Shown here piece by piece: positions 31,819 through 47,538 of a stretch of 64,000 bases of DNA. The position numbers were made by a program, and so were the translations under genes. The DNA is from Aromatoleum petrolei (GTDB taxonomy: Bacteria; Pseudomonadota; Gammaproteobacteria; Burkholderiales; Rhodocyclaceae), in NCBI RefSeq assembly GCF_017894385.1, contig NZ_CP059560.1, positions 2,604,001 through 2,668,000 on the forward strand. The letters run 5' to 3'. Under the pieces are notes generated by a model that worked only from the letters and a program-made list of their open reading frames with translations, ran no database searches and was not told the DNA's origin. Positions within the stretch are counted from its first letter, which is position 1. Each line of letters starts with the position of its first letter.

Positions 31819-32832
31819 TCAGGGGTGGCCCGAACGCTCCACCTTGACCTCGTTGTACCAGTGCTCGTGGTGCTCCTTCGCCCAGGTCTCGTCCACGTAG
31901 CCGGTCCTCATCGACTGGTAGGCGCCTTCGACGCCTATCGTGCCCATGTAGATATGGCCCAGTGACAGGGCGATCAGGACGATCGCGCCGACGCCGTGGA
32001 TGATGTTGGCGAGCTGCATGTCCGCGCGCGTCTGGCCGAAGTTGGGGAAATCCATCACGAGGCCGGAGCCGGCGACGATCAGGCCGAGCAAGGTCACGCC
32101 GATCCAGAACCAGGTCTTCTCGCCGAAGTTGAAGCGCCCCGAAGGCACGTGCTCGCCGCTGGCGATGCCACCGGCCTTGCGGATCCACACGCTGTCGATC
32201 GCGTGCCACACGTTGTCGCGCAGGAAGGTGAGGATCATCAGCACCGTGAACACGCCGAACACCGGCCCGAGATAGTTATGCACGTTCTTGCCGGCCCACA
32301 GCAGGCCGCCGAGCGCGGCGTTGCCGAGGATCGGCTCGATGATGTGCTTGCCGAACAGGATGCATACGCCGGTGATGCCCAAGACGACGAAGCTGACCGC
32401 GGTGCCCCAATGGACGACGCGCTCGAACAGGCTGAAGCGCTGCATCCTGCGGCCGGTCGGCGCGCCGTGCAGCTTGACCGCGCCCTTCACCGCGTAGAAC
32501 AGCGCGATCGCGGTCGGCACCACCAGCAGCAGGATGCCGCCGTAGAAGGTGATCGGGCCGTTGCGCCACTGCCGCCAGGTCTGGCCTTCGCTCTGGATCA
32601 GCACGCCGGTCTCGGGGCCGCGCACGGTGGTGAAGTGCACCTCGCCCGAGCGCACTTCGCGCCACACCGGCGCGTTGTTGAGCGGTTGCGCCTGCTGGCG
32701 CTCGACCTGCGCCGTGGCCGCCCCGGCCGCCGTATCGGCTGCCAGCGCCGGCACACCGGCCAGCGCCAACAGCCACGCCACCAGCGCCAGCAGCCACCCG
32801 ATGCCGCCACGCCGCCTGAGGATCGAGTTCAT
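31819..32832 (-). CDS. fdhC: Formate dehydrogenase gamma subunit (cytochrome b)
   Basis: 337 residues, membrane cytochrome b that passes electrons from the Fe-S subunit to quinone. N-terminal signal-like helix (GGIGWLLALVAWLLALAGVPALAA), a periplasmic segment of about 65 residues, then four core helices with heme-ligand His candidates in SLFERVVHWGT, GKNVHNYLG and ALSLGHIYMG. The start at 32832 has GAGGAG seven bases upstream. An ATG at 32847 overlaps the preceding stop but lacks such a site. Last gene of the operon. Confidence 0.9.
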   Translation of the reverse strand: MNSILRRRGGIGWLLALVAWLLALAGVPALAADTAAGAATAQVERQQAQPLNNAPVWREVRSGEVHFTTVRGPETGVLIQSEGQTWRQWRNGPITFYGGILLLVVPTAIALFYAVKGAVKLHGAPTGRRMQRFSLFERVVHWGTAVSFVVLGITGVCILFGKHIIEPILGNAALGGLLWAGKNVHNYLGPVFGVFTVLMILTFLRDNVWHAIDSVWIRKAGGIASGEHVPSGRFNFGEKTWFWIGVTLLGLIVAGSGLVMDFPNFGQTRADMQLANIIHGVGAIVLIALSLGHIYMGTIGVEGAYQSMRTGYVDETWAKEHHEHWYNEVKVERSGHP

Positions 32833-32843
32833 GGACGGTCTCC

Positions 32844-33068
32844 TCATTCAACCCGCTTGTATTCGTTCTGCGTGCGGATGCGGTTGCGCTGGGCCTGTTC
32901 CCACGCCCCCTTGTCGCCCTTGAACGTTCCGCCGTCCCACGGCCGCTGGTCGGCCTTGCCGGCATACTCGCCCTGCTCGTACTTGCCGACCTGCGGCCGC
33001 TCGCCACAGCCGGCGAGGACGGTTGCCACGACTACGGCGGCGATCACGTACGGAATGCTCGCTTTCAT
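32844..33068 (-). CDS. Small lipoprotein within the formate dehydrogenase operon
   Basis: 74 residues. Lipoprotein signal IPYVIAAVVVATVLAGC with lipobox VLAGC (Cys21), then a hydrophilic tail rich in Lys, Gly and aromatic residues (GKYEQGEYAGKADQRPW). Start overlaps the fdhB stop as ATGA, so it is tightly coupled to the beta subunit. I do not recognise a named family. Placement between beta and gamma subunits suggests an assembly or anchoring role for the membrane-bound enzyme; inference only. Confidence 0.75.
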   Translation of the reverse strand: MKASIPYVIAAVVVATVLAGCGERPQVGKYEQGEYAGKADQRPWDGGTFKGDKGAWEQAQRNRIRTQNEYKRVE

Positions 33069-33670
33069 TTCGCCTCCTCCTTGTCCTTGCCGTAGGCGGT
33101 CATCCAGCCCCAGGCCTCGACGCCCTTGCCGCGGCGCAGGACGCGGTCGCGGAAGATGTCCGAAATCTCCGAGGAGTCGCCGGCGAGCAGCGCCTTGGTC
33201 GAGCACATCTCGGCGCACAGCGGCAGCTTGCCTTCGGCGATGCGGTTGCGTCCGTATTTGTCGAATTCGGCCTGCGAGCCGTTCTCCTCGGGACCGCCGG
33301 CGCAGAAGGTGCATTTGTCCATCTTGCCGCGTGCGCCGAAGGCCGCCGGGCCGTTGGGGAACTGTGGCGCGCCGAAGGGGCAGGCGTAGAAGCAGTAGCC
33401 ACAGCCGATGCAGCCGTCCTTGTCGTGCAGGACGATGCCTTCCTCGGTCTGGTAGATGACGTTGGTCGGGCACACCGCGATGCACGGCGCGTCCGAGCAG
33501 TGCATGCACGCGACCGACATCGAACGTTCGCCCGGCACCCCGTCGTTGATGGTGACGACGCGGCGGCGATTCACGCCCCAGGGCACTTCGTGCTCGTTCT
33601 TGCAGGCGGTGACGCAGCCGTTGCACTCGATGCAGCGCTCGGCGTCACACAGGAATTTCATGCGTGCCAT
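33065..33670 (-). CDS. fdhB: Formate dehydrogenase beta subunit (4x[4Fe-4S])
   Basis: 201 residues. Four Cys sets: CDAERCIECNGCVTAC, CMHCSDAPCIAVCP, CIGCGYCFYACPFG and CTFCAGG with a later Cys in LCAEMC. Carries electrons from the catalytic subunit to the cytochrome b. Shorter than E. coli FdnH because it lacks the C-terminal membrane helix. 11 bases after fdhA; ATG at 33670, with a second Met three residues in. Confidence 0.94.
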   Translation of the reverse strand: MARMKFLCDAERCIECNGCVTACKNEHEVPWGVNRRRVVTINDGVPGERSMSVACMHCSDAPCIAVCPTNVIYQTEEGIVLHDKDGCIGCGYCFYACPFGAPQFPNGPAAFGARGKMDKCTFCAGGPEENGSQAEFDKYGRNRIAEGKLPLCAEMCSTKALLAGDSSEISDIFRDRVLRRGKGVEAWGWMTAYGKDKEEAK

Positions 33671-33681
33671 TTATTTTCTCC

Positions 33682-36588
33682 TCAGGCCTTGGATACGCGG
33701 CACAGGGTGGTCTTGGTTTCCTGCATCATCGTCACGACGTCGTAGCCGTAGGTCGTCGCGGTGTTGACCGCCTCGCCGCGCACGATCGGCGCCGCCCCTT
33801 CCGGATAGAACTCGAGCATGTCCTTGCCCTGCCACCAGCCCGAGAAGTGGAAGGGCAGAAACACCGTGCCCGGCGCGACGCGCTGCGTGACCTGGGCGCG
33901 CACCTTGAGTTTCGCCTTGGTCGGCGATTCGACCCAGATGTAGTCGCCGTTGCGGAAGCCGGCGTCGTTGGCGTCCTTGGGGTTCACCTCGGCGAACATC
34001 TCCTGCTGCAGCTCGGCGAGCCAGGGATTGGAGCGCGTCTCCTCGCCGCCGCCCTCGTACTCCACGAGGCGCCCCGAGGTCATGATCAGCGGATACTCCT
34101 TGGAGATGTCCTTGACCTTTTCCTGCAGCGACTTGTACAGCGTCGGCAGGCGCCAGAACTTCATCTTGTCGTCGTGCGTGGGGTACTTCTCGACCAGATC
34201 CGGGCGCGGCGAGTAGATCGGCTCGCGGTGCAGCGGCACCGGGTCGGGGAAGTTCCACACCAGCGCGCGCGCCTTGGCGTTGCCGAAGGGGTGCATGCCG
34301 TGGTTCTTCATCGCGACGCGGATGATGCCGCCGGAGAGGTCGGTCTTCCAGTTCCTGCCCTCGGCGGCGGCCTTCTCGGTGTCGGTGAGCTCGTCCCACC
34401 AGCCGAGTTTCTTCAGCAGCACGTCGTCGAACTCGGGGTAGCCCATCTGCAGCTCGGCGCCCTTGGACGCCGAGCCTTCCTCGGCGAGCAGCGACACGCC
34501 GTCCTTCTCGACGCCGAAGTTGGCGCGGAAGTTGCCGCCGCCGTCCATCACGTGCTTGGAGGTGTCGTACAGGTTGGGCGTGCCCGGGTGCTTGAGTTCG
34601 GGCGTGCCGTAGCACGGCCACGGCAGGCCGAAGTACTCGCCGTCGCACGGGCCGCCGTTGGCCTTCAGCGTCTTCACGTCGAAGGTGTGCATGTTCTGCA
34701 TGTGCAGCTTCAGGCGCTCGGGCGACTGGCCGGTGTAGCCGATCGTGAAGGTGCCGCGGTTGATCTCGCGCAGGATGTCCTCGGGCACCGGCTCGTCCCA
34801 ACCGTCCTTGTCCTTCACCAGCGGGATGTTCTTCACGAGCTCGTCGCCAAAGCCGAACTTCTTCGCGAAGGCGTACATGATCGTCTGGTCGGGCTTGGAC
34901 TCGAACAGCGGCTCGATGACCTTCTCGCGCCACTGCAGCGAGCGGTTCGACGCGGTGGCCGAGCCGGAAGTCTCGAACTGCGTGCACGCGGGCAGCAGGT
35001 ACACACCGTCCTTCCTCACCATCGCCGCCATCGACGCGGTCGCCGACGGGTAGGGGTCGATGACGACCAGGGTGTCGAGCTTCTTCATCGCCTCGACCAT
35101 CTCCGCGCCGCGCGTCTGCGAGTTCGGCGCGTGGCCCCAGTACACCACCGCACGCAGGTTGCCGCCGGGCTGGTCGATGAGTTCCGGGTTCTCGAGCACG
35201 CCGTCGATCCAGCGCGACACGGTGATGCCGGACTTGGTCATCAGCTCCTCGGACTTGTAGCGCGCCTTGACCCACTCGTAATCCACGCCCCACACCCTGC
35301 ACCAGTGTTTCCACGAGCCCGCGGCCAGGCCGTAGTAGCCGGGCAGCGAGTCCGGGTTGGGGCCGACGTCGGTGGCGCCCTGCACATTGTCGTGGCCGCG
35401 GAAGATGTTGGTGCCGCCGCCCGCGACGCCGACGTTGCCGAGCGCGAGTTGCAGGATGCACATCGCGCGCACGTTGGCGTTGCCGACGGTGTGCTGGGTC
35501 TGACCCATGCACCATACGACGGTCGAGGGTTTGTTCTTCGCCAGCGTCTCGGCGACGGTACGCACCTGCTCCTCGGGGATGCCGGTGACTTCCTGCACCT
35601 TGTCGGGCGTCCACTTCGCAACTTCCTCGCGCACCTTGTCGAAGCCGTAGACGCGCTGGCGGATATATTCCTCGTCCTCCCAGCCATTCTGGAAGATGTG
35701 GTACAGCAGGCCCCAGATGAAGGGGATGTCGGTGCCCGAGCGCAGGCGCACGTAGTAGTCGGCCTTGGCCGCCGTACGCGTGAAGCGCGGGTCGACGACG
35801 ATCATCTTGGCGCCGTTCTCCTTGGCATGCAGGATGTGCAGCAGCGACACCGGGTGCGCTTCCGCCGCGTTGGAGCCGATGAACATCATCGCCTTCGCGT
35901 TCTGCATGTCGTTGTAGGAGTTCGTCATCGCGCCGTAGCCCCAGGTGTTGGCGACGCCGGCGACGGTGGTCGAGTGGCAGATACGCGCCTGGTGGTCCAT
36001 GTTGTTCGTGCCGAAGAAGGACACGAACTTGCGCATCAGGTAGGACTGCTCGTTGCTGTGCTTCGACGAGCCGATCCAGTACACGGCGTCGGGGCCGGAT
36101 TCCTCGCGGATCTTCAGCAGGCGGTCGCCCACTTCCTGGATCGCCTGCTCCCAGGTGATCTTCTGGTACTTGCCGTCGACCAGCTTCATCGGGTACTTCA
36201 GGCGGTGCTCGCCGTGGCCATGCTCGCGGATCGACGCGCCCTTGGCGCAGTGCGCGCCGAGGTTGATCGGCGAATCGAACACCGGCTCCTGGCGGATCCA
36301 CACGCCGTTCTTGACCACCGCGTCGATCGCGCAGCCCACCGAACAGTGCGTGCACACGGTGCGGCGCACGCTCGCGTCGCCCGCGGCGCCTGCCGCTTCG
36401 GGGCTGGCCGCGTCGGCGCTGCCGATCAGGTTGTAGGGCAGCTGCGCCGCCAGCGCGCCGGCGCCCACGCCGAGGCCCGAGCGCTTGAGGAAGGTGCGCC
36501 GGTCCATGGTCTGGCCGAAGTGCCGCGCCGCCGAGCTGCGCAGCTGACGGGCGGCGCCCGTCGCCTGGGTGGATTTCCTCGTGAGCAT
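33682..36588 (-). CDS. fdhA: Formate dehydrogenase catalytic alpha subunit (Mo/W-bisPGD, Cys type)
   Basis: 968 residues, oxidises formate to CO2 in the periplasm. Twin-arginine signal DRRTFLKRSGLGVGAG with the Arg pair at 30-31, one [4Fe-4S] site (Cys79, Cys82, Cys86, Cys114), and the active-site Cys204-His205 in HQARICHSTT where E. coli FdnG/FdoG have selenocysteine (codon TGC at 35977-35979). C-terminal molybdopterin-dinucleotide-binding domain ends the protein. The start at 36588 was chosen because the frame upstream is low-complexity and overlaps the TAT-protein gene, while GGGGGA precedes this ATG. Confidence 0.95.
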   Translation of the reverse strand: MLTRKSTQATGAARQLRSSAARHFGQTMDRRTFLKRSGLGVGAGALAAQLPYNLIGSADAASPEAAGAAGDASVRRTVCTHCSVGCAIDAVVKNGVWIRQEPVFDSPINLGAHCAKGASIREHGHGEHRLKYPMKLVDGKYQKITWEQAIQEVGDRLLKIREESGPDAVYWIGSSKHSNEQSYLMRKFVSFFGTNNMDHQARICHSTTVAGVANTWGYGAMTNSYNDMQNAKAMMFIGSNAAEAHPVSLLHILHAKENGAKMIVVDPRFTRTAAKADYYVRLRSGTDIPFIWGLLYHIFQNGWEDEEYIRQRVYGFDKVREEVAKWTPDKVQEVTGIPEEQVRTVAETLAKNKPSTVVWCMGQTQHTVGNANVRAMCILQLALGNVGVAGGGTNIFRGHDNVQGATDVGPNPDSLPGYYGLAAGSWKHWCRVWGVDYEWVKARYKSEELMTKSGITVSRWIDGVLENPELIDQPGGNLRAVVYWGHAPNSQTRGAEMVEAMKKLDTLVVIDPYPSATASMAAMVRKDGVYLLPACTQFETSGSATASNRSLQWREKVIEPLFESKPDQTIMYAFAKKFGFGDELVKNIPLVKDKDGWDEPVPEDILREINRGTFTIGYTGQSPERLKLHMQNMHTFDVKTLKANGGPCDGEYFGLPWPCYGTPELKHPGTPNLYDTSKHVMDGGGNFRANFGVEKDGVSLLAEEGSASKGAELQMGYPEFDDVLLKKLGWWDELTDTEKAAAEGRNWKTDLSGGIIRVAMKNHGMHPFGNAKARALVWNFPDPVPLHREPIYSPRPDLVEKYPTHDDKMKFWRLPTLYKSLQEKVKDISKEYPLIMTSGRLVEYEGGGEETRSNPWLAELQQEMFAEVNPKDANDAGFRNGDYIWVESPTKAKLKVRAQVTQRVAPGTVFLPFHFSGWWQGKDMLEFYPEGAAPIVRGEAVNTATTYGYDVVTMMQETKTTLCRVSKA

Positions 36589-36602: not shown

Positions 36603-36809
36603 CTAGATGCGCGCAGTGCGGTAGTAATTGCGGGCGTGCTCGCTGACGCCACGCTCCGTCCCGGTTTCGCCCGCCGCCGGTGCCGACGGCGCTGCGACCG
36701 CGGCCGGCTTGCCGGCGACCGTCGCGACGGCCGCCGCGGCTGCGGCGCCGCCGGCGCCCAGTGTCAGCAGGAAATGACGGCGCTGCAGGCCGGATTTCTT
36801 GTCTTCCAT
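36603..36809 (-). CDS. Formate dehydrogenase region TAT-signal protein
   Basis: 68 residues. Twin-arginine signal QRRHFLLTLGAGG, an Ala/Pro-rich stretch, and a short C-terminus SEHARNYYRTARI that is typical of the small 'formate dehydrogenase region TAT target' family. The family is known only from this gene context; role unknown. Start at 36809 has AGAAGGA upstream. It ends 14 bases before fdhA. Confidence 0.85.
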   Translation of the reverse strand: MEDKKSGLQRRHFLLTLGAGGAAAAAAVATVAGKPAAVAAPSAPAAGETGTERGVSEHARNYYRTARI

Positions 36810-36861: not shown

Positions 36862-37506
36862 CTACTCCATTGCGAAAGCTTCGCTCTCGATGTCGAAAAA
36901 CACCCGCATCAGCGCACCGGTGCGGGCATAGAACCGTGCCTGCGGCGCCGCGGCGAGCGCGTCGGCGAGACGCACGTACCAGGGCTGCAGATGACGGACG
37001 AAAAAGCGCCGCTGCCGCGCAAGGCCGGCCTCGTCGGGGCCGGTGAGCACGAGGTGACGCATGACCTCGGCGAGCGCGGCGATGTGATCCTCGGTCTCGG
37101 CCACCCCCGGGCGGCGCGCGAGGCCCAGCTCGGCAAGGTCGTCGCGCAGTTCGGCGAGCGGCTCCTCCATGAGGAAGCCGGCGAGATAGAAGGAGCCGAA
37201 GAGCATCACCTCGGGCCGGCCGACGCCGTAGAACAGGGTGTGGTATTCGTCATGCAGGCCCCTCGCGTCGCTGTCCGCGGCGACCTCGCCGAGCCCGGCC
37301 CAGGCGACCGCGAACGGCGTGTCGCCGCTGCCGAGCACGCGCGCGGAGGCGACCAGCGCAGCGAGCAGCGGCGCTTCGGGCGCACCGAAGAACAGGTTGC
37401 CCAGCAGCGCGTAATGGTGCGCGCGCGCCCGGTCCTCGTCGGTGAGCACCGGGACGTCGCCGGGCAGCGGGTGCTGCGGCTGGAAGATCGTGGCAGGTGC
37501 GTTCAT
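36862..37506 (-). CDS. TorD/DmsD-like molybdoenzyme chaperone
   Basis: 214 residues, all-helical TorD family (YALLGNLFFGAPEAPLLAALV, LHDEYHTLFYGVGRPEVMLFGSFYLAGFLMEEPLA is the conserved core). Such chaperones bind the TAT signal and apo-form of one Mo enzyme; here the client is almost surely FdhA. Its start overlaps the polyferredoxin stop as ATGA. Confidence 0.9.
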   Translation of the reverse strand: MNAPATIFQPQHPLPGDVPVLTDEDRARAHHYALLGNLFFGAPEAPLLAALVASARVLGSGDTPFAVAWAGLGEVAADSDARGLHDEYHTLFYGVGRPEVMLFGSFYLAGFLMEEPLAELRDDLAELGLARRPGVAETEDHIAALAEVMRHLVLTGPDEAGLARQRRFFVRHLQPWYVRLADALAAAPQARFYARTGALMRVFFDIESEAFAME

Positions 37507-39614
37507 TCGGTCATGTTCCAGGCTTTGGCGCCGTTCTCGTTTTCCATCAGGTCGATCACGCGGCAGTCGGCGCACATGTGCAGGCGCCGTCGCTGCGCCT
37601 CGCTGGCGAACATCGAATGGCCGGCAAGGCGCGCGAACATCGCGTCGATCATCGGCTTGGCGCCCATCGCCGTGCCACAGCGCACGCAGTGGAAGATCTC
37701 GGCTTCCTTCAGCGGCACCACGCGGCGCGCCGCGTCGTCGAGCCGCAGGCGCGGCGTGAGCGCGACGGCGCTCTCCGGACAGGCGTTTGCGCACAGCCCG
37801 CACTGCACGCAGCTCTTCTCGAGGAAGCCGAGGCGCATCGCGTCAGCGGCGGCGCTGAGCGCCCCGGTCGGACAGGCACCGACGCAGGCCATGCACAGCG
37901 TGCAGGCGTCGCTGACGGCGACGGCACCGAAGGGGGCGCCGGCCTTCAGCGCGATCTCAGTGACCGGCGCGGGCGCGACCGCGTGCAGGTGGCGCAGCGC
38001 GAGGTCCAGCGTGTCGCGCTTCCTCGGCACGAGGCGAAAGCTCGCCGGGCGGCTCACGCCCTGCGCGGGCGACCAGTCCCACGATGCCGCCTCGAGGGCC
38101 GGCCAGTCCTCGGCCTCGATCACGCGCAGGTGCTCGCCGGCGTAGCCCAGCCCGGCGAGGATGGTCTGCGCATGGGCGGCCTGCGCCCACAGCGGCGCCG
38201 CGTCGTGCGTGCCCGCCGCCAGCACGGCGACCTGGCAGGCCCCGAGCGCGAGGCTGCCGAGCATCAGGTCGAGGCCCGCCGCATCGGCGCTCCAGAGCTC
38301 GAGCGGAATCACCCGCGCCGGCAGGCCCTTGCCGCGGCGCGCGAGGCGCTCGATCAGCGCGCGGCCGGCCTCGGCCGAATGGAACAGCAGGCAGGCATCC
38401 TCACCACCGGCCTCGCGGTAACGCGCGAGCACCGTCTTCACGCGCAGGCCGACGTCCTCGACGCGCGGATACTGCGGCGCGAGCGCGCCGGTCGGGCACA
38501 CCGTCGAACAGGTGCCGCACCCCTGGCAGAGGTAGGGATCGACGCGCACGGCGTCGCCCGCGGAGGAAATGGCCTCGGCCGCACAGGCCTCGATGCAGTT
38601 CGAACAGCCCGCCTTGCGCGAGCGGCTGTGTGCGCACAGCTTGGCGTCGAGCGCGACGTAGCGCGGTTTCTCGAATTCGCCGACGAACTCGTCCAGCGCC
38701 TGCACCGCGAGCGCCTGGTCGAGCGGGTCGCGCCCCGGCGCAGCGTAGCCCTGCGGCGGCTCGACGCGCCTGAGCAGCGCTTCCGGCGAGAGGTCCAGCA
38801 CGAGGTCGAAACGTCCCTCGCGCCGCGTGTCGGTGCGCGCGAAATCGATCGCGCCGACCGTGCCGCAGGCCGCCACGCAAGCGCGGTGCGCGCGACAGCG
38901 GGCGGCGTCGACCTGGTAATCCCAGCCGATCGCCCCTTCCGGACAGGCGCGGATGCAGGCGTTGCAGCGTACGCACAGGTCGAGGTCGATCGGGTTCTGC
39001 TGCGCCCAGACGGCGTCGAAGGCACCGAGGTGGCCGGAGAGCGTCACCCCCGCACCGGACCACACCGGATAGCGCCGTTCGAGCGGCAACTCGGCGTCGC
39101 GGCTCGCGCCGGTGAGCAGCACGGACACCTCGAAGCGCCCCGCCAGGCGCTCGGCCCAGCCCAGCGCCGCGCCGGCCTCGCCGACGATCAGCAGGTTCCT
39201 GCCCGCCGCCAGCGTCACCCCGGCGACCGGATCCGGCTCGGGCAGCATCGCCGCGGCGAGCAGCGCCGCCATCTTGGGCGTCGCGCCGCGGCCTTCGGCC
39301 GACCAGCCGGCGTTTTCGCGCAGGTTGAAGAAATCGATGCGCACCGCCGGACGCTCCGCCGCCACCTCGGCGAACAGCGCAGCCTCCTGCGTACAGCCGA
39401 CGAGGACGTCGCCGCACGCGAGCGCAGACTCGAACTCACCGATCTCCCGCCGGCACAGCTCGTGATGGACTTTCAGCGGCCCGGGGATGCCCGCCGCGAG
39501 GGCTTTTTCATCGACTGCGAAACTGCGGTTGCAGTCGCACAGCCTGATCTGTCTCGCCACTTGGATGGTCGCCTGCCTGATTGGTGTGATGCAGCCAAGC
39601 AGAGGACGTACCAA
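37503..39614 (-). CDS. Polyferredoxin-type multi-[4Fe-4S] protein with HdrA/FlpD-like features
   Basis: 703 residues, no signal peptide, so cytosolic. N-terminal part (about 20-110) has a Cys pair in IRLCDCN, a VGCTQE motif at 71-77 and FFNLRENAGW at 95-104, reminiscent of HdrA. A Rossmann-like strand NLLIVGEAGAALG follows at 140-152. Ferredoxin clusters use Cys214/217/220/224, 240/246/250, 327/337/340/344 and 363/366/369/373. A domain at about 405-505 (LALGACQVAVLAAGTHDAAPLW) resembles the FlpD/MvhD fold. Two more clusters (571/574/577/581 and 602/605/608/612) and a Cys pair set (643/646, 681/684) end it. The start could be a GTG at 39560, giving MARQIRLCDCN. Role unproven; electron transfer in formate metabolism or FDH maturation is likely. 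Confidence 0.8.
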   Translation of the reverse strand: MVRPLLGCITPIRQATIQVARQIRLCDCNRSFAVDEKALAAGIPGPLKVHHELCRREIGEFESALACGDVLVGCTQEAALFAEVAAERPAVRIDFFNLRENAGWSAEGRGATPKMAALLAAAMLPEPDPVAGVTLAAGRNLLIVGEAGAALGWAERLAGRFEVSVLLTGASRDAELPLERRYPVWSGAGVTLSGHLGAFDAVWAQQNPIDLDLCVRCNACIRACPEGAIGWDYQVDAARCRAHRACVAACGTVGAIDFARTDTRREGRFDLVLDLSPEALLRRVEPPQGYAAPGRDPLDQALAVQALDEFVGEFEKPRYVALDAKLCAHSRSRKAGCSNCIEACAAEAISSAGDAVRVDPYLCQGCGTCSTVCPTGALAPQYPRVEDVGLRVKTVLARYREAGGEDACLLFHSAEAGRALIERLARRGKGLPARVIPLELWSADAAGLDLMLGSLALGACQVAVLAAGTHDAAPLWAQAAHAQTILAGLGYAGEHLRVIEAEDWPALEAASWDWSPAQGVSRPASFRLVPRKRDTLDLALRHLHAVAPAPVTEIALKAGAPFGAVAVSDACTLCMACVGACPTGALSAAADAMRLGFLEKSCVQCGLCANACPESAVALTPRLRLDDAARRVVPLKEAEIFHCVRCGTAMGAKPMIDAMFARLAGHSMFASEAQRRRLHMCADCRVIDLMENENGAKAWNMTE

Positions 39615-39722: not shown

Positions 39723-40268
39723 CTACGCGCGATGCTCGGGCATGGCGTCGCCGTGGCCGTCGCCCTCATCCTCGCCTGCGGACGTCGCCGCCGCGGGTGA
39801 CGGACCGGGCTCGGCAGCGGCGGCCGCCTGCGGCGGGGCCGGCTGCACGGCGCTCTCGTCCGCCTCCTCATCCTTGAGCAGGGTCTCGAACTGCCGCAGC
39901 TTCTGCAGCATGTCCGCCGGAATCGGGTCGCCGCCCGAATAATCGTCGATGTAGATGTCGAGCTTGTCCATGCGCTCGAAATGGAAGTGCGGATCGCTGA
40001 AGAGCTTGCGCAAGGCCGCGCGGCGCAGCGATTCGCTGACCTCCTTCTTCATGAAGGCGCTGAAGTCCGCCGCGAGGTCCAGGCTGTCGATGGGCGGCAG
40101 GGCCGCTTCCGCGGGGGATGCCGGGGTCGCGGCATCGGCCGCGGGCGGCACGGCGCGGGAGGCCGCGCCTGCGGCGCTCGGAGCCGCCGGCACCACCGGG
40201 GCCGCGGGCGCGGCGGCGCTCGTCTCGCCGCGCTTCAGCCGCGACCAGCGCTCGAGGAAACGGGTCAT
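39723..40268 (-). CDS. DUF3306 family protein (formate dehydrogenase-associated)
   Basis: 181 residues. N-terminal FLERWSRLKRGE, a long Ala/Pro low-complexity linker (about 17-60), the DUF3306 core FMKKEVSESLRRAALRKLFSDPHF and DKLDIYIDDYSGG, then an acidic, Ala/Pro-rich tail. DUF3306 is found almost only beside DUF3305 in formate dehydrogenase clusters; likely a maturation factor. Start overlaps the DUF3305 stop as ATGA. Confidence 0.85.
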   Translation of the reverse strand: MTRFLERWSRLKRGETSAAAPAAPVVPAAPSAAGAASRAVPPAADAATPASPAEAALPPIDSLDLAADFSAFMKKEVSESLRRAALRKLFSDPHFHFERMDKLDIYIDDYSGGDPIPADMLQKLRQFETLLKDEEADESAVQPAPPQAAAAAEPGPSPAAATSAGEDEGDGHGDAMPEHRA

Positions 40269-40732
40269 GCCTGCTCCCGGTCCTGCGCCAGCGGATCGTT
40301 GCGGCGGATCTTCTTCCGCGGCGCCGGCTTGTAGTGCAGGTTCACGAACTCGCCCACCCAGTCGGCGATCTCGCGCGGCATCGCCACGCCGTCGACCTGC
40401 TCGCCCGAATCGAGCAGGCGCGCCGCCTCGCCGTAGCTCACCGTGACGGAGAGCGGCTTCGCGACGCCGTCTTCCCTGCGCCACATCACGAACACCTTGG
40501 GCACCGGCGAACTCAGGTTGAGGAAGTAGTTGTCCGCCTCGTCGCGAAACAGCTCCAGCGCGAAGCCGCCGACGAGGTACTGGTCGCGGTCGGCCTCCGC
40601 CACCAGCTGGCGCGTCGCCCCGGGGTTGTCGCCGAAGGCCGGCACGACGCCGACCGCCTCCCACGCCTCATCCGCCCAGCGGCTCTGCAGGCGGCGGCGC
40701 TCCATGATGACGGCGAGGGGAAAACGGTCCAT
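40265..40732 (-). CDS. DUF3305 family protein (formate dehydrogenase-associated)
   Basis: 155 residues; one DUF3305 domain (FPLAVIMERRRLQSRWADEAWEAVGVVP, then VSYGEAARLLDSGEQVDGVAMP and a basic tail with KPAPRKKIRRNDPLA). Start at 40732 has AGGAG eight bases upstream and gives the usual MDRFPLAV beginning. First gene of the minus-strand fdh block; role unknown but confined to this context. Confidence 0.85.
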   Translation of the reverse strand: MDRFPLAVIMERRRLQSRWADEAWEAVGVVPAFGDNPGATRQLVAEADRDQYLVGGFALELFRDEADNYFLNLSSPVPKVFVMWRREDGVAKPLSVTVSYGEAARLLDSGEQVDGVAMPREIADWVGEFVNLHYKPAPRKKIRRNDPLAQDREQA

Positions 40733-41034
40733 GCGACGAACTCCTGATGACTCGATCCTTCTTAGGATAGGCGAAGCGGCCACGGCGGGCGACCGTCACA
40801 CCGCCGGCCGATGTCCGAATTTCCCGCCCGCCGCACTAGGAGCCTGTCGGACCTGAAGAATCGAAGCGAAAATTCGGCTGGGCGAGGACAGATTTTGTCG
40901 ATTTTGCAGGTCAATAGTCATTCTATTGACCAAGAAAGCGGCGAAATATGGACCGCCCAGGCGGATTTGCAGCCGATTTCCTTTAAGTCCGACAGGCTCC
41001 TAGAATACCCCCTCGAACCCACCCGTCCCTCTCC
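40733..41034. other. Divergent control region of the fdh cluster
   Basis: 302 bases between the DUF3305 gene and fdhD. More than half is the MITE-like element at 40836-41003. The 103 bases on the DUF3305 side show a possible TATCCT -10 box but no clear -35 box. Only 31 bases separate the element from fdhD, so the fdhD promoter must lie in or across the element. Confidence 0.5.
40836..41003. mobile_element. MITE-like nonautonomous element with 17-bp terminal inverted repeats
   Basis: 168 bases bounded by perfect inverted repeats CTAGGAGCCTGTCGGAC (40836-40852) and GTCCGACAGGCTCCTAG (40987-41003). Pairing continues inward in part (CTGAAG against CTTTAAG). Inside are a perfect 9-bp hairpin GGTCAATAG/CTATTGACC (40909-40931) and matching TCGGCTG-GGCG / CGCCC-CAGCCGA blocks, so the whole unit can fold into one long hairpin. 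It is clearly less GC-rich than its surroundings and has no transposase. The outer CTAG may be a target duplication or part of the repeat. The IS family that moves it cannot be named with confidence. Confidence 0.85.
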
Positions 41035-41871
41035 ATGCCCTCCGCCCCCGACACGCCGCGCCGTCCACTGCTGAGCCACGCGAGCCACCCGCTGACGGTG
41101 ACGATCCCGGCCGTCGACGAGAACGGCGAGCACGTGCCGACACAGATCGCCGGCGAGTTTCCGCTGACGATCTACGTCGATCGCCGCGAGATCGTCACGC
41201 TGATGACGCTGGGCGCCGCGCCCGAGGCGCTGACGATAGGCTGGCTGCGCAACCAGCGCCTGGTCGCGAGCCTGGACGACATCGAGGCGGTGCAGGTCGA
41301 TTGGGAGGTCAATGCCGTCGCGGTGAAGACGCGCAACGGCCTCGTCGACGCCGATGAGCGCCTCGGCAGCCGCACCGTCACGACCGGCTGCGGCCAGGGG
41401 ACGGTGTTCGGCGGCCTGATGGACGAGATCGACGCGATCCACCTGCCGGCCGACCGCAGGCTCACGCAGGCGACGCTATACGCGCTGATGGACGCGGTTC
41501 GTCACCACGAATCGATCTACAAGCAGGCCGGCGCCGTGCACGGCTGCGCGCTCGCCTGGCCCACGGCCGACGGCTGCGAGATCCTCATGTTCGTCGAGGA
41601 CGTCGGCCGCCACAATGCCGTCGACGCGATCGCCGGGCAGATGTGGCTGGACGGCCTCGGCGGCGGCGACAAGATCTTCTACACCACCGGCCGGCTCACG
41701 TCGGAAATGGTCATCAAGACCGCGCAGATGGGCATCCCCTTCCTCGTCTCGCGCTCCGGCCTCACGCAGATGGGCTGGGAGATCGCGCGCAAGATCGGCC
41801 TGACGATGATCGGGCGCGCGCAGGGCAAGCACTACCTTCTATTCACCGGCGAGGAGCGATTCACCCGATGA
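41035..41871 (+). CDS. fdhD: Formate dehydrogenase sulfurtransferase FdhD
   Basis: 278 residues. FdhD passes sulfur to the Mo-bisPGD cofactor of formate dehydrogenase. Signature parts: GEFPLTIYVDRREIVTLMTLG, TTGCGQGTVFGG, SIYKQAGAVHGCALA, VEDVGRHNAVDAIAG and YTTGRLTSEMVIKTAQMGIP. The CXXC of the E. coli protein is reduced to a single Cys119 (CGQG), as in part of the family. The mobA start overlaps its stop as ATGA. Confidence 0.95.
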   Translation: MPSAPDTPRRPLLSHASHPLTVTIPAVDENGEHVPTQIAGEFPLTIYVDRREIVTLMTLGAAPEALTIGWLRNQRLVASLDDIEAVQVDWEVNAVAVKTRNGLVDADERLGSRTVTTGCGQGTVFGGLMDEIDAIHLPADRRLTQATLYALMDAVRHHESIYKQAGAVHGCALAWPTADGCEILMFVEDVGRHNAVDAIAGQMWLDGLGGGDKIFYTTGRLTSEMVIKTAQMGIPFLVSRSGLTQMGWEIARKIGLTMIGRAQGKHYLLFTGEERFTR

Positions 41872-42452
41872 GCGTGCGCGAAAAGATCACCGGCGTCGTC
41901 CTCGCCGGCGGACAGGGGCGGCGCATGGGCAGCGTCGACAAGGGCCTGGTCGAGCTGCGCGGGCGGCCGATGGTGGCTCACGTGATCGAACGCTTCGGCC
42001 CCCAGGTCGACGAGCTGATCATCAACGCCAACCAGAACGCCGAACGCTACGCCGCCTTCGGCTACCCCGTGTTCCCCGACGACATCGGCGGCTTCGCCGG
42101 CCCGCTCGCGGGGCTGCACGCAGCGCTCTCGCGTGCACAGCATCCGCTGGTCGCGACCGCCCCCTGCGACTCGCCCTTCCTGCCGTCCGATCTCGTCGAA
42201 CGCCTGTACCGCGGCCTCGCCGAGGCCGGCGCCGAACTCGCCGTCGCACGCACGTTCGACCAGCCCCACCCGGTGTTCTGCCTGTGCCGGCGCGACGTGC
42301 TCCCGCACCTCGACGAATTTCTCGCCGGCGGCGGACGCAAGATCGACTTCTGGTATGCGACGCTGAAGATCGTCGAAGTGCGCTTCGACGACGAGGAAGC
42401 GGCGTTCCGCAACATCAACACGCGCGACGAACTCGACGACGTCGCACGATGA
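41868..42452 (+). CDS. mobA: Molybdenum cofactor guanylyltransferase MobA
   Basis: 194 residues. GTP-binding LAGGQGRRMGSVDKGLVELRG near the N-terminus and metal-site region TAPCDSPFLPSDLV. Converts Mo-molybdopterin to the guanine dinucleotide form needed by FdhA. Overlaps fdhD upstream and the HTH regulator downstream, each by ATGA. Confidence 0.95.
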   Translation: MSVREKITGVVLAGGQGRRMGSVDKGLVELRGRPMVAHVIERFGPQVDELIINANQNAERYAAFGYPVFPDDIGGFAGPLAGLHAALSRAQHPLVATAPCDSPFLPSDLVERLYRGLAEAGAELAVARTFDQPHPVFCLCRRDVLPHLDEFLAGGGRKIDFWYATLKIVEVRFDDEEAAFRNINTRDELDDVAR

Positions 42453-43890: not shown

Positions 43891-45279
43891 TCACGCGACC
43901 GACTCGCCCCACTCCGCGCACTTGCGCTCCAGCGTCTTGCGCGACACCCCCAGGCGCCGCGCCGCCTCCGACTTGTTGCCGCCGCACGCATCCAGCATGC
44001 GCAGGATGTGGCGCTTCTCGACCTCGTCGAGCGGCAGGTCCGTGCCGCCGGCGAGCACGTCGCCGCGCGCACCCAGCGCCTCCACCGGGAAATGGCCGAG
44101 GATCAGCGAGCGCTCGATGAAGTTGCGCAGCTCGCGCACATTGCCCGGCCAGCCGTAGGTCTCGAGACGCGCGAACAGCGTGTTCGACAGCGCGAGCGGC
44201 GGCACGCCCAGCTGCAGGGTCAGCTGCTGCATGAAATGGCGCACCAGGTCCGGGATGTCCTGGGCGCGCTCGCGCAGCGGCGGAATCACGATCTCGACCA
44301 CCGCCAGGCGGAAATACAGATCCTGGCGGAAGCGCCCGGCGGCGACCTCCGCGGCCAGATCGCGGTTCGATGCCGCGATGATGCGCACATCCACCGGCAC
44401 CTCGCGCTCCGAACCGACCGGCCGCAGCCTGCGCTCCTCGAGCACGCGCAGCAGGCGGGCCTGCAGCGCCAGCGGCAGCTCGCTGATCTCGTCGAGGAAG
44501 AGCGTGCCGCCGTGAGCATAGTAGAAGAGGCCGTTGCGCGTCTCGGTCGCGCCGGTGAAGGCGCCCTTCACGTGGCCGAAGAGCTCGCTCTCGATCAGCC
44601 CGGCCGCGATCGCCGCGCAATTCACCGGCACGAAGGGGCGCTGCGCACGCGGGCTCATGCGGTGCAGCGCGCGCGCTGCGACTTCCTTGCCGGTGCCCGA
44701 TTCGCCCAGCAGCAGCACCGTGCTGGGCATCTGCGCGACGCGCCGCAGGACCGTGCGCAGCTCCTCCATCGCCGTCGAGTTCCCGACCAGGCCTTCGACG
44801 TCGGCCGACAGGCCCGCGAGCTCGCGCCGCAGGATGAAGTTCTCGCGCGCGAGGTGGGCGCGCTGGAAGCAGTTCTTGATCGAATTCAGGATCTGGTCGA
44901 CACGGAAAGGTTTGAGGATGAAGTCCGACGCACCGCCGCGCAGCGCGTTGATCGCGGTGTCGAGGTCGGCGAAGGCGGTGATCAGGATCACGTCGCCGGC
45001 GAAGCCCGATTCGCGCAGCTCGTGCAGCCAGTCGAGGCCGGACTTGCCCGGCAGCGCGATGTCGAGGATCAGCAGGTCGAAGTGCAGCCGCGCCATCAGG
45101 CGCATCGCGTGCTCGGCGTCCGGCGCGGTTTCCACGAGGCCGCAGCGCGGCTTGAGCGCGCGCTCGAGGAAGCTGCGCATGCCTTCCTCGTCATCGACGA
45201 TAAGGATCGAATGCGCCTGCCAGTTGAATTCCGGAGTTCCGCCGTGGCCCGGCGCGCCCCCGTCCCGCTCATGCTGCAT
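43891..45279 (-). CDS. Sigma54-dependent response regulator
   Basis: 462 residues, NtrC type. Receiver domain with phospho-Asp73 (LLILDIALPG), AAA+ domain with Walker A GESGTGKE at 192-199 and sigma54-contact GAFTGA at 239-244, Walker B TLFLDEIS, and a Fis-type HTH at the C-terminus (GGNKSEAARRLGVSRKTLERK). All residues needed for phosphorylation and sigma54 activation are there. GAGGA lies just upstream of the ATG at 45279; an in-frame ATG at 45294 lacks such a site. Pairs with the upstream kinase gene. Confidence 0.93.
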   Translation of the reverse strand: MQHERDGGAPGHGGTPEFNWQAHSILIVDDEEGMRSFLERALKPRCGLVETAPDAEHAMRLMARLHFDLLILDIALPGKSGLDWLHELRESGFAGDVILITAFADLDTAINALRGGASDFILKPFRVDQILNSIKNCFQRAHLARENFILRRELAGLSADVEGLVGNSTAMEELRTVLRRVAQMPSTVLLLGESGTGKEVAARALHRMSPRAQRPFVPVNCAAIAAGLIESELFGHVKGAFTGATETRNGLFYYAHGGTLFLDEISELPLALQARLLRVLEERRLRPVGSEREVPVDVRIIAASNRDLAAEVAAGRFRQDLYFRLAVVEIVIPPLRERAQDIPDLVRHFMQQLTLQLGVPPLALSNTLFARLETYGWPGNVRELRNFIERSLILGHFPVEALGARGDVLAGGTDLPLDEVEKRHILRMLDACGGNKSEAARRLGVSRKTLERKCAEWGESVA

Positions 45280-45378
45280 CGCTGTCCTCTTCATGAGTCG
45301 CCCGTTTCTGCGAATGGCCGGCGCACAGTTGGATTTTGATGATAACCGAGCCTCCGCCACCTACGCCCCAACTACGCC

Positions 45379-47538
45379 TCACCAGCGCCGCAAAAACCCC
45401 GGAGCGCTCGGGGATTCGTCATAACGCGCGTCGCGCCTCAGCCACAGTGCGAACTCCGTGCCCTCGCCGGGCCGGCTGTCGACCTCGATACGGCCGCCAT
45501 AACGCTCGACGATGGTGTAGCTGATCGACAGCCCCAGCCCGGTGCCGCTGCCCTTCTTGGTCGTGAAGAAGGGGTCGAAGATGTGCGACAGATCCTCCGG
45601 CGCGATGCCCTGGCCGGTGTCGCGCACCCGGATCACCGCGCCCACCGCCTCGCCGTCCTCGCCCCAGTCTGCCGTCGCGAGGCTCAGGCAGCCGCCCGCA
45701 GGCATCGCCTGCACGGCGTTCACGATCACGTTGATCAGCACCTGCTGCAGCTCGCTGCGGTTGATCTCGATGCGCGCGCCGGCACCGAAGTCGGTGATGA
45801 CCTCGATCGCGCGGCGGTCGAAGTTGTGCTGCGTGAGGAACAGGCAGTCGGCGACGACCTCGTTCACCTCCACCGCCTCCGCGTACCCTGCGAACTCGCC
45901 CGGACGCGCAAACTGCAGCAGCTTGGTGACGATCTGGCGGATGCGGTCGGTCTGCTCGTGGATCAGGCGGATCTCCTGGCGCACGGGCTCGGCGGCTGGC
46001 CCCAGCTGGTCGCGCATCACATCCAGGTTGCCCTGGATCACCGCCACCGGGTTGTTGATCTCGTGCGCGACGCCCGCCGTCAGTTCGCCGATCGCCGCCA
46101 GCTTCTCGCTCATCACCAGCTGCTGCTGCGCACGCCGCAGCGTCTCGTTCGCCTCGCGCAGCTCCAGGGTGCGCTCGGCCACCTTGCGGTCGAGTTCCTC
46201 CGCCCAGCGCTGCAGCTCCTCGCGCTTGGCCGACAGCGTGTCGAGGAGCTGGTCGAACTCGCCCGCGAGCCGCCCCAGCTCGTCGCGGCTCGCCACCTCG
46301 CCGACGCGCGCGTCCGCTTCGCCCTGCTCGACGCACTGGATCACCGCGTTCATGCGCTCGATCGGCCGGAACACGCTGCGCGCCCAGCGCAGGCTGAGCA
46401 CCGCACCGGCCGCGCTGATGGCGATGAACAGCGCGAACAGCGCCCCCATCGCCATGCGTCCCGCGCTGCGGAAGGGCTCCTCCAGGAAACCGACGTACAG
46501 CATCCCGACCCGCTCCCCGCGACCGTCCGCGATCGGCTCGTAGCCCGAGACGTAATCGTCGTTCACGACGAAGGCCGTGCCCAGCCAGGTCTCGCCGCGC
46601 CCCAGCACGCGTTCGCGCACCGCCTGCGACACACGCGTTCCGAGCGCCCGCGTGTCGCCGAACAGGCGCACGTTGGTGGCGATGCGCGCGTCGTCGAGGA
46701 ACAGGGTGGCGGTCCCGCGACTGCCGAGCGGCAGCGAGCCGTCGCGATAGACGATGGCGTTGATGCGGTCGACCATTTCCAGATTGCCGTTGAGCAGCAC
46801 GCCGCCCTCGAGCACGCCCACGAGGTTGCGCTTTGCGTCATACACCGGTGCGGCGGCGTGAATCACCAGTCCCCGGTCCTCTGCGGTGCGCGCATCGGGT
46901 GCGGCCGCACGCGTTTCCACCAGCGGCAGCCACGCGCGCTCACGCAGCGCCGGGGACAAATATTGGAGCGCCTCGGGCGCGAATCGTTCTACCGTCGTCA
47001 GCGCGGTGCCGTTCAGCGCCGACGCCACCGCCGGCCAGGCGAGGCGCGGGGCGGCCGCGCCCGCGAGCGGCTGCGACGCCGCCAACGGGCGGCCTTCGCG
47101 GTCGAGCAGCAGCAGGAAGTCCAGGCGCCGCCCGGGAGCGAGTTCCGCGAGCAGCGTGGGCAGCGCCGCCGGCTGCGCGGCGAGCAGCCCGACCAGGCGG
47201 TGCGATTCGGCGAGCGCCTGCACGTCGTGCCCGACGCCGATGCGCACGCGATCGAAATACTCGTGCGCGGTGACGAGATCGGAACTGATCTTGAAGTTCA
47301 GCAGGCGCTCGTAGCCCTCGCTGCCCCAGGTCCATACCAGCCCCAGCAGCACCGGCACCCCGACGACCAGCGGGGCGAGCACCAGCGCGAGCAGCTTGGC
47401 GCGGACCGACCTGCGCAGCCGATCGGTCCAGCGCGGGCGCTTCGGCGCATCACGATCCGCCGCGCGCCCCGACGCCGTGGGAGCGGATTCCTCCGCGAAC
47501 GGGACCGTTTCGCGGCTGAAGCCGCTCCCACCGGACAA
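45379..47538 (-). CDS. Sensor histidine kinase with periplasmic Cache-like domain
   Basis: 719 residues as drawn. Membrane helix at about 49-71 (LLALVLAPLVVGVPVLLGLVW), a periplasmic single-Cache-like sensor (about 75-360), second helix at about 363-384, HAMP domain, coiled coil, HisKA with phospho-His492 in GVAHEINNP and a HATPase domain (GTGLGLSISYTIVERYGG). Partner of the sigma54 regulator 99 bases downstream. The only start available is a TTG at 47538, and residues 2-21 (SGGSGFSRE...) come from a REP-like palindrome. No ATG or GTG lies between it and the first helix and no clear ribosome binding site precedes it. Translation may depend on htpX, whose stop lies 12 bases upstream. Confidence 0.88.
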   Translation of the reverse strand: MSGGSGFSRETVPFAEESAPTASGRAADRDAPKRPRWTDRLRRSVRAKLLALVLAPLVVGVPVLLGLVWTWGSEGYERLLNFKISSDLVTAHEYFDRVRIGVGHDVQALAESHRLVGLLAAQPAALPTLLAELAPGRRLDFLLLLDREGRPLAASQPLAGAAAPRLAWPAVASALNGTALTTVERFAPEALQYLSPALRERAWLPLVETRAAAPDARTAEDRGLVIHAAAPVYDAKRNLVGVLEGGVLLNGNLEMVDRINAIVYRDGSLPLGSRGTATLFLDDARIATNVRLFGDTRALGTRVSQAVRERVLGRGETWLGTAFVVNDDYVSGYEPIADGRGERVGMLYVGFLEEPFRSAGRMAMGALFALFIAISAAGAVLSLRWARSVFRPIERMNAVIQCVEQGEADARVGEVASRDELGRLAGEFDQLLDTLSAKREELQRWAEELDRKVAERTLELREANETLRRAQQQLVMSEKLAAIGELTAGVAHEINNPVAVIQGNLDVMRDQLGPAAEPVRQEIRLIHEQTDRIRQIVTKLLQFARPGEFAGYAEAVEVNEVVADCLFLTQHNFDRRAIEVITDFGAGARIEINRSELQQVLINVIVNAVQAMPAGGCLSLATADWGEDGEAVGAVIRVRDTGQGIAPEDLSHIFDPFFTTKKGSGTGLGLSISYTIVERYGGRIEVDSRPGEGTEFALWLRRDARYDESPSAPGFLRRW
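47477..47531. repeat. REP-like palindrome (BIME-type) at the start of the sensor kinase gene
   Basis: 55 bases: GTGGGAGCGG (47477-47486) and CCGCTCCCAC (47522-47531) as outer arms, and CCGCGAA/TTCGCGG as inner arms. The sequence is of the extragenic palindrome kind well known from pseudomonads and relatives. It shares AGCCGCTCCCAC with 22228-22239. Unusually it lies inside a reading frame. Confidence 0.8.

Follow-up and report, generated by a model that had tools for sequence, protein, structure and literature searches.

This study concerns a polyferredoxin gene of Aromatoleum petrolei, which lies within an operon for the formate dehydrogenase FDH3. The window, meaning the whole stretch of DNA analysed, comprises 64,000 nucleotides of contig NZ_CP059560.1 (assembly GCF_017894385.1, positions 2,604,001 to 2,668,000, forward strand). 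Pfam and NCBIfam searches gave the gene order DUF3305, DUF3306, polyferredoxin, TorD-type chaperone, small twin-arginine translocation (Tat) protein, FdhA, FdhB and FdhC. FdhD, MobA and MobB are encoded close to this operon, the FdhD gene being divergent, and the ATG of the chaperone gene overlaps the stop codon of the polyferredoxin gene (ATGA).

The initial annotation, made from the sequence alone, had described a large polyferredoxin in a formate dehydrogenase operon, and this was borne out by the open reading frame (ORF), its cysteine motifs and the Pfam and NCBIfam matches. The ORF, given there as 37503..39614, is real and lies on the minus strand; it can be read either from a TTG at 39614 (703 residues) or from a GTG at 39560 (685 residues). 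The GTG is the more likely start because it gives the length of the closest homologues (685 residues), which makes 37503..39560 the likelier extent. The closest named homologue comes from Aromatoleum evansii (95% identity). The 685-residue protein contains 34 cysteines, and the "six or so" [4Fe-4S] sites first proposed become about seven when predicted from motifs (one in the N-domain and two each in the inserted, core and C-terminal ferredoxins), with a mononuclear site in addition. An AlphaFold model (pLDDT 92, pTM 0.87) combined with a fold search divides the chain into three pieces, namely an HdrA-like half, an MvhD/FlpD domain and a HycF-like module. The protein is predicted to be cytosolic: neither a twin-arginine leader nor a recognisable signal peptide was seen on reading, no membrane span was predicted, and the single hydrophobic peak belongs, in the model, to the folded MvhD-like domain.

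Conservation was followed in a family alignment of 33 rows and in a larger set of 44 rows. The HdrA-like N-terminus noted earlier is found by fold and is weak by sequence (16.4 bits). Its four cysteines are kept in all 26 rows of the smaller alignment that have the domain; the seven rows without it belong to other orders of the class. In the larger set it is missing in 18 rows, namely the same seven together with short forms from the window's own order (six) and from Thiobacillaceae (five). Judged from these alignments, the domain is dispensable within the family. The degenerate Rossmann segment was likewise confirmed by fold, residues 120-294 of the model superposing on HdrA and on the thioredoxin-reductase fold. 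In its dinucleotide glycine motif (GxGxxG) G145 alone is conserved (33/33) and the other glycine positions vary. The ferredoxin inserted into this segment occurs in 9/33 and 9/44 rows, all of them long forms from the window's own order. Its second motif reads CxxHxxCxxxC, with His243 present in 9/9 rows having it, and the insert probably holds a His-ligated cluster.

The core ferredoxin keeps its cysteines in 33/33 rows, except for C366 (26/33), and scores 48.4 bits to the HdrA C-terminus with a profile that spans the whole protein, seven rows of its alignment (A3) being full-length. The short forms L020, L021, L023 and L027-L030 have Val (five) or Ala (two) in place of C366, which the Thiobacillaceae short forms and those of the window's order still have. 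Without this ligand, one cluster in those seven proteins may be of the [3Fe-4S] type or labile. The likeness to HdrA (8rvu, 8rvy, 5odc, 7bkb) resides in the fold, with the N-domain and the ferredoxin modules in the same order, whereas most of the FAD domain has gone here together with GxGxxG, and both the N-domain and the inserted ferredoxin are dispensable.

A similar loss is seen in the next domain, which has the MvhD fold (5odh_D, 5odc_D) without the conserved [2Fe-2S] cysteines; its own cysteines are poorly kept (C408 in 3/33 and C460 in 5/33 rows). The FlpD/MvhD-like domain of the initial annotation therefore stands by fold and did not pass the profile test: the best MvhD-type chain had a non-significant E of 0.8, a Pfam scan gave no FlpD model at E<=1, and the FlpD profile test by itself would have missed it. 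The HycF-like module, which had not been noticed earlier any more than the loss of the HdrA flavin motif and of the MvhD cysteines, is supported by both fold and sequence comparison. HycF of the Escherichia coli formate hydrogenlyase (7z0s_F) has the same succession of 2[4Fe-4S] and a CxxC-x~34-CxxC quartet; in the present protein the module shares one chain with HdrA and MvhD parts. The two terminal Cys pairs (C643, C646, C681 and C684), predicted from the motif to bind a mononuclear metal, were found as first described in 33/33 and 44/44 rows, with a spacing of 32-38 residues in 33/33. The spacing in HycF is 34, and its quartet is reported to lie close to the interface with FdhF within formate hydrogenlyase (PMC9474812).

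Table 1. Features of the polyferredoxin gene and its neighbourhood (window coordinates)
Feature	Position	Strand	Remarks
Polyferredoxin gene	37503..39560	minus	685 residues from GTG; TTG at 39614 would give 703
HdrA-like N-terminal domain	39204..39560	minus	C26, C28, C54, C74; NLRENAGW; HdrA fold
Degenerate Rossmann segment, remnant of HdrA FAD domain	38655..39203	minus	flanks the inserted ferredoxin on both sides
Inserted ferredoxin	38817..38993	minus	C214..C250, His243
Core ferredoxin	38418..38654	minus	C327, C337, C340, C344, C363, C366, C369, C373; equivalent of HdrA C-terminal ferredoxin
MvhD/FlpD-like domain	37977..38405	minus	MvhD fold; no conserved cysteines
HycF-like module	37542..37955	minus	2[4Fe-4S] and CxxC-x34-CxxC metal quartet (37563-37688)
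DUF3305 protein	40265..40783	minus	PF11749, 175 bits
DUF3306 protein	39723..40268	minus	PF11748, 97.9 bits
TorD/NarJ-family chaperone	36862..37506	minus	PF02613, 95.7 bits
Small Tat-signal protein FdhX	36603..36809	minus	TIGR02811, 31 bits, below cut-off 48.45
FdhA, formate dehydrogenase catalytic subunit	33682..36588	minus	PF00384, PF01568, PF04879; TIGR01591, 496.6 bits, below cut-off 666.25
FdhB, FDH3 beta subunit	33065..33670	minus	NF038355, 336.6 bits, cut-off 240
FdhC, formate dehydrogenase gamma (cytochrome b) subunit	31819..32847	minus	TIGR01583, 180.9 bits, cut-off 115.85
FdhD sulfurtransferase	41035..41871	plus	PF02634, 256 bits
MobA-like guanylyltransferase	41868..42452	plus	PF12804, 140 bits

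Co-occurrence was examined in a sample of 249 Pseudomonadota genomes, the polyferredoxin being searched at E<=1e-10. FDH3 beta (over its cut-off), DUF3305 and DUF3306 matched an identical set of 34 genomes, and the polyferredoxin search matched 38, that is all 34 of these together with G219, G144, G215 and G239. The last three matches are weak and cover the ferredoxin part only, leaving G219 as the sole clear extra. The coupling to formate dehydrogenase, DUF3305 and DUF3306 foreseen in the initial annotation was therefore found in 34/34 genomes, counts which kinship among the sampled genomes inflates; by genus, DUF3305 and DUF3306 match in 23/132. DUF3305 lies within 10 kb of the polyferredoxin in 33/34 genomes and FDH3 beta in 32/34, the exceptions being G016 (32 and 38 kb) and G028 (FDH3 beta at 10.6 kb). 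Among the named related loci, which are the best 80 of 589 and all close relatives, 46 have both flanks, and in these DUF3305, DUF3306 and TorD are always present (46/46), followed by FdhA (45), FdhB (44), FdhC (43) and FdhD (36).

In a 671-residue protein of a metagenomic cluster of 20 (P0204), DUF3306 is fused to a short-form polyferredoxin (PF11748, 83.4 bits, residues 13-116), and this fusion suggests that DUF3306 acts together with the polyferredoxin. Short forms of other orders had also suggested that loss of the N-domain is tied to loss of the N-terminal half of DUF3305. This coupling was rejected because six short forms of the window's order break the pattern: they are devoid of the N-domain, and their DUF3305 matches begin at query residue 18-23.

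The clear extra genome, G219, is that of Sulfuritortus calidifontis (identical protein), a member of the Thiobacillaceae. A short relative of the polyferredoxin is present in 5/61 Thiobacillaceae genomes (E<=1e-20), with all 20 core cysteines kept. In 5/5 loci it comes immediately after a PF02613 chaperone gene and downstream of the genes for a molybdopterin oxidoreductase and for an Fe-S subunit. Two of the five oxidoreductases were scanned and most resemble PhsA or ArrA, far below the cut-offs of those models; twin-arginine leaders were seen by eye in the two that were read, and the partner molybdoenzyme is probably Tat-exported. FdhA of the FDH3 type was not found in the five genomes, where the best identities were 29-36%, compared with 69-82% across six FDH3 loci of the same order. 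DUF3306 was not found in G219, the one Thiobacillaceae genome searched for it. DUF3305 gave no match in the five genomes, with controls that gave none either; the same model matched 34/249 genomes of the large sample, in which G219 was negative. The TorD-type chaperone of Sulfuritortus (L032:5846-6784) ends in CTRC-x29-CLDCR, like the metal quartet of the polyferredoxin, in a pairwise comparison that is not significant (E 0.48).

FdhD (PF02634) was not found in four of the five Thiobacillaceae genomes having the relative, with a model that matches in 5/61 Thiobacillaceae genomes and in 8/14 controls. In the fifth genome (G477) it lies on another contig, near another gene of formate dehydrogenase type. 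Since the Thiobacillaceae forms sit beside a different molybdoenzyme and FdhD was found in one genome of the five, the family is, by its gene contexts, neither formate- nor FdhD-specific. On the same comparison, the loci have a TorD chaperone and a molybdoenzyme in common, rather than formate or FdhD. The initial annotation had held that occurrence independent of formate dehydrogenase would speak against its view; such occurrence was found in part, being rare but real.

These loci bear directly on two of the roles first suggested. One is that of a dedicated electron donor for the FdhD-dependent sulfuration of the molybdenum-bis(pyranopterin guanine dinucleotide) (Mo-bisPGD) cofactor. Conversion of persulfide sulfur to the sulfido ligand consumes electrons, and FdhD divergently adjoins the operon and lies in the flanks of those 36 named loci, which would suit such a donor. 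The suggestion is weakened by the relatives in four genomes where FdhD was not detected, although the model finds it elsewhere in the family and in controls; E. coli, conversely, has FdhD but neither DUF3305 nor DUF3306. We think a sulfuration donor quite unlikely for the family as a whole; within the FDH3 clade such a role may yet apply. The other role is a metabolic hub linking the oxidation of formate with an electron pool in the cytosol, comparable to MvhD and HdrA in the FDH-Hdr complexes of methanogens. The HdrA, MvhD and HycF relatives do all belong, by the titles of the matched structure entries, to electron chains linked to formate dehydrogenase or hydrogenase. FDH3 itself is expected to work outside the cytosol, given the twin-arginine leader of FdhA (DRRTFLK, recognised by eye; Pfam TAT_signal is not listed at E<=1) and the membrane cytochrome b gamma subunit. 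The flavin motif and the MvhD cysteines are lost as well, and five Thiobacillaceae relatives sit with a different molybdoenzyme at loci without an FDH3-like enzyme, so that the hub found no support and appears very improbable.

Maturation is the best supported of the roles that the initial annotation had offered, and from sequence and model together we consider the polyferredoxin likely to be a biogenesis factor. A fuller scheme, which we regard as an evenly balanced proposal, is that of a pre-export factor for Tat-exported Mo-bisPGD enzymes, here FdhA, which docks by its HycF-like end and delivers electrons. The polyferredoxin would dock on immature FdhA, with TorD, before export; this end is proposed because in formate hydrogenlyase its HycF counterpart is found close to the interface with FdhF. 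Low-potential electrons would then run from a cytosolic donor along the chain of clusters into FdhA, where they would activate the Mo and Fe-S centres by reduction ahead of Tat export. The HdrA and MvhD parts would provide a scaffold and a wire and would not act as a bifurcating flavoprotein. Flavin bifurcation as in HdrA was rejected, since the HdrA flavin motif and the MvhD cysteines are lost; modules of electron-bifurcating complexes are reused here without flavin.

Small ferredoxins offer a precedent for such a factor. NapF is reported to be a cytosolic ferredoxin that is required for the reconstitution of the NapA cluster in Rhodobacter and binds NapA in E. coli (PMC10609526), and HydN/YsaA are described as ferredoxins needed for full FDH-H activity, with a two-hybrid interaction with FDH-H (PMC6004506). 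None of them is a subunit of the enzyme that it serves. As in these cases, a predicted cytosolic ferredoxin is genetically tied to a molybdoenzyme, and a like role is proposed here by analogy. They differ from the present protein in being small, whereas several modules are joined here, and the NapF model TIGR00402 gives 59.2 bits against a cut-off of 102.2. NapF also provides the model for another explanation, in which the polyferredoxin hands [4Fe-4S] clusters to FdhA/FdhB, or to another exported molybdoenzyme, before export. The NapF needed for the Rhodobacter reconstitution is reported to carry four labile [4Fe-4S] clusters (PMC10609526), the polyferredoxin shares its genetic setting next to a molybdoenzyme and a chaperone, and the loss of core ligand C366 in 7/33 rows would perhaps be tolerable in a labile site. 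The protein is nevertheless built like an electron wire (HdrA, MvhD, HycF) with nearly invariant cysteines over several modules, where a carrier needs far less, and the NapF model remains below its cut-off. We regard a cluster donor as unlikely, though it is the foremost alternative; that electrons are delivered rather than clusters is, taken by itself, a call we place just short of even.

The HycF-like end can also be read as part of a redox gate, by which the polyferredoxin would bind FdhA-TorD in one redox state only and so license Tat transport, as a form of proofreading, while delivering nothing. For HycF, control of FdhF binding through the redox state of the quartet has been proposed (PMC9474812), and the link to the chaperone is close, as seen in the ATGA overlap, in the constant presence of TorD in the named loci and in its position directly before the relative in all Thiobacillaceae loci. 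About seven clusters would be superfluous for a sensor and direct support is lacking, which makes a pure gate improbable.

Several points weigh against the proposed pre-export electron delivery. The superposition of the whole chain on HdrA is poor, seven full-length Foldseek rows having TM 0.25-0.35 and root-mean-square deviations of 9-30. Docking leans on one module, in which the residue matching HycF Arg122 is Thr here (basic in 21/33 relatives), and cluster transfer would leave an identical sequence picture. The Tat leaders of the partner enzymes were mostly recognised by eye, with TAT_signal at 18.2-22.3 bits in 4/5 (cut-off 22.7) and unlisted in the fifth. The five Thiobacillaceae proteins are set apart in the tree by a long branch (length 1.09) with full support, and this clade may have changed function. 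E. coli, which possesses formate dehydrogenases, has FdhD without DUF3305 and DUF3306 (the polyferredoxin was not searched there), and such enzymes can therefore mature without this gene set. In both E. coli and Wolinella succinogenes, loss of NapF, the closest precedent, is reported to have only a marginal effect (PMC10609526).

A bolder form of the proposal, which we put forward tentatively and with some doubt, is that of a previously undescribed and broadly used device, in which a dead HdrA-MvhD unit joined to HycF would dock in the cytosol on immature exported Mo-bisPGD enzymes of more than one kind and charge their metal centres before Tat export, independently of FdhD. The family is present in all FDH3 genomes sampled and occurs again with an unrelated molybdoenzyme in genomes that gave no FdhD match, so that a single deletion could separate the supply of electrons, of clusters and of sulfuration. 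The cytosolic proteins that complete the cofactors of molybdoenzymes destined for export, and their electron source, are described as unsettled even for an enzyme as thoroughly studied as NapA (PMC10609526).

The operon itself has been on record since 2015, when Bay et al. described a DUF3306-DUF3305-fer4-torD-fdh operon in which, in the text available, fer4 is named just as a 4Fe-4S protein (PMC4464133). Shewanella oneidensis SO_4506 is likewise listed, in the parts consulted, only as an iron-sulfur protein beside FdhD, FdhT, FdhA and FdhB (PMC2535785, PMC5826389). The operon of Bay et al. has the same parts as here, and SO_4506 is a putative counterpart, likened by its listing. The open-access literature, as far as its accessible text goes and with subscription papers mostly outside the coverage, gave no domain analysis or function for this composition, which is apparently undescribed there.

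Neither HdrB/HdrC nor [NiFe] hydrogenase or complex I-like genes were present among the operon genes scanned, no genome-wide search having been made. The DUF3305 protein has a confident AlphaFold fold (pLDDT 89), for which a search of the PDB gave no convincing relative. Between mobA and mobB lies a regulator with helix-turn-helix and PBP-like parts (PF12728, PF12727; 42449-43372), and a sigma-54 response regulator and a cache-domain histidine kinase adjoin the formate dehydrogenase locus (43891-47538).

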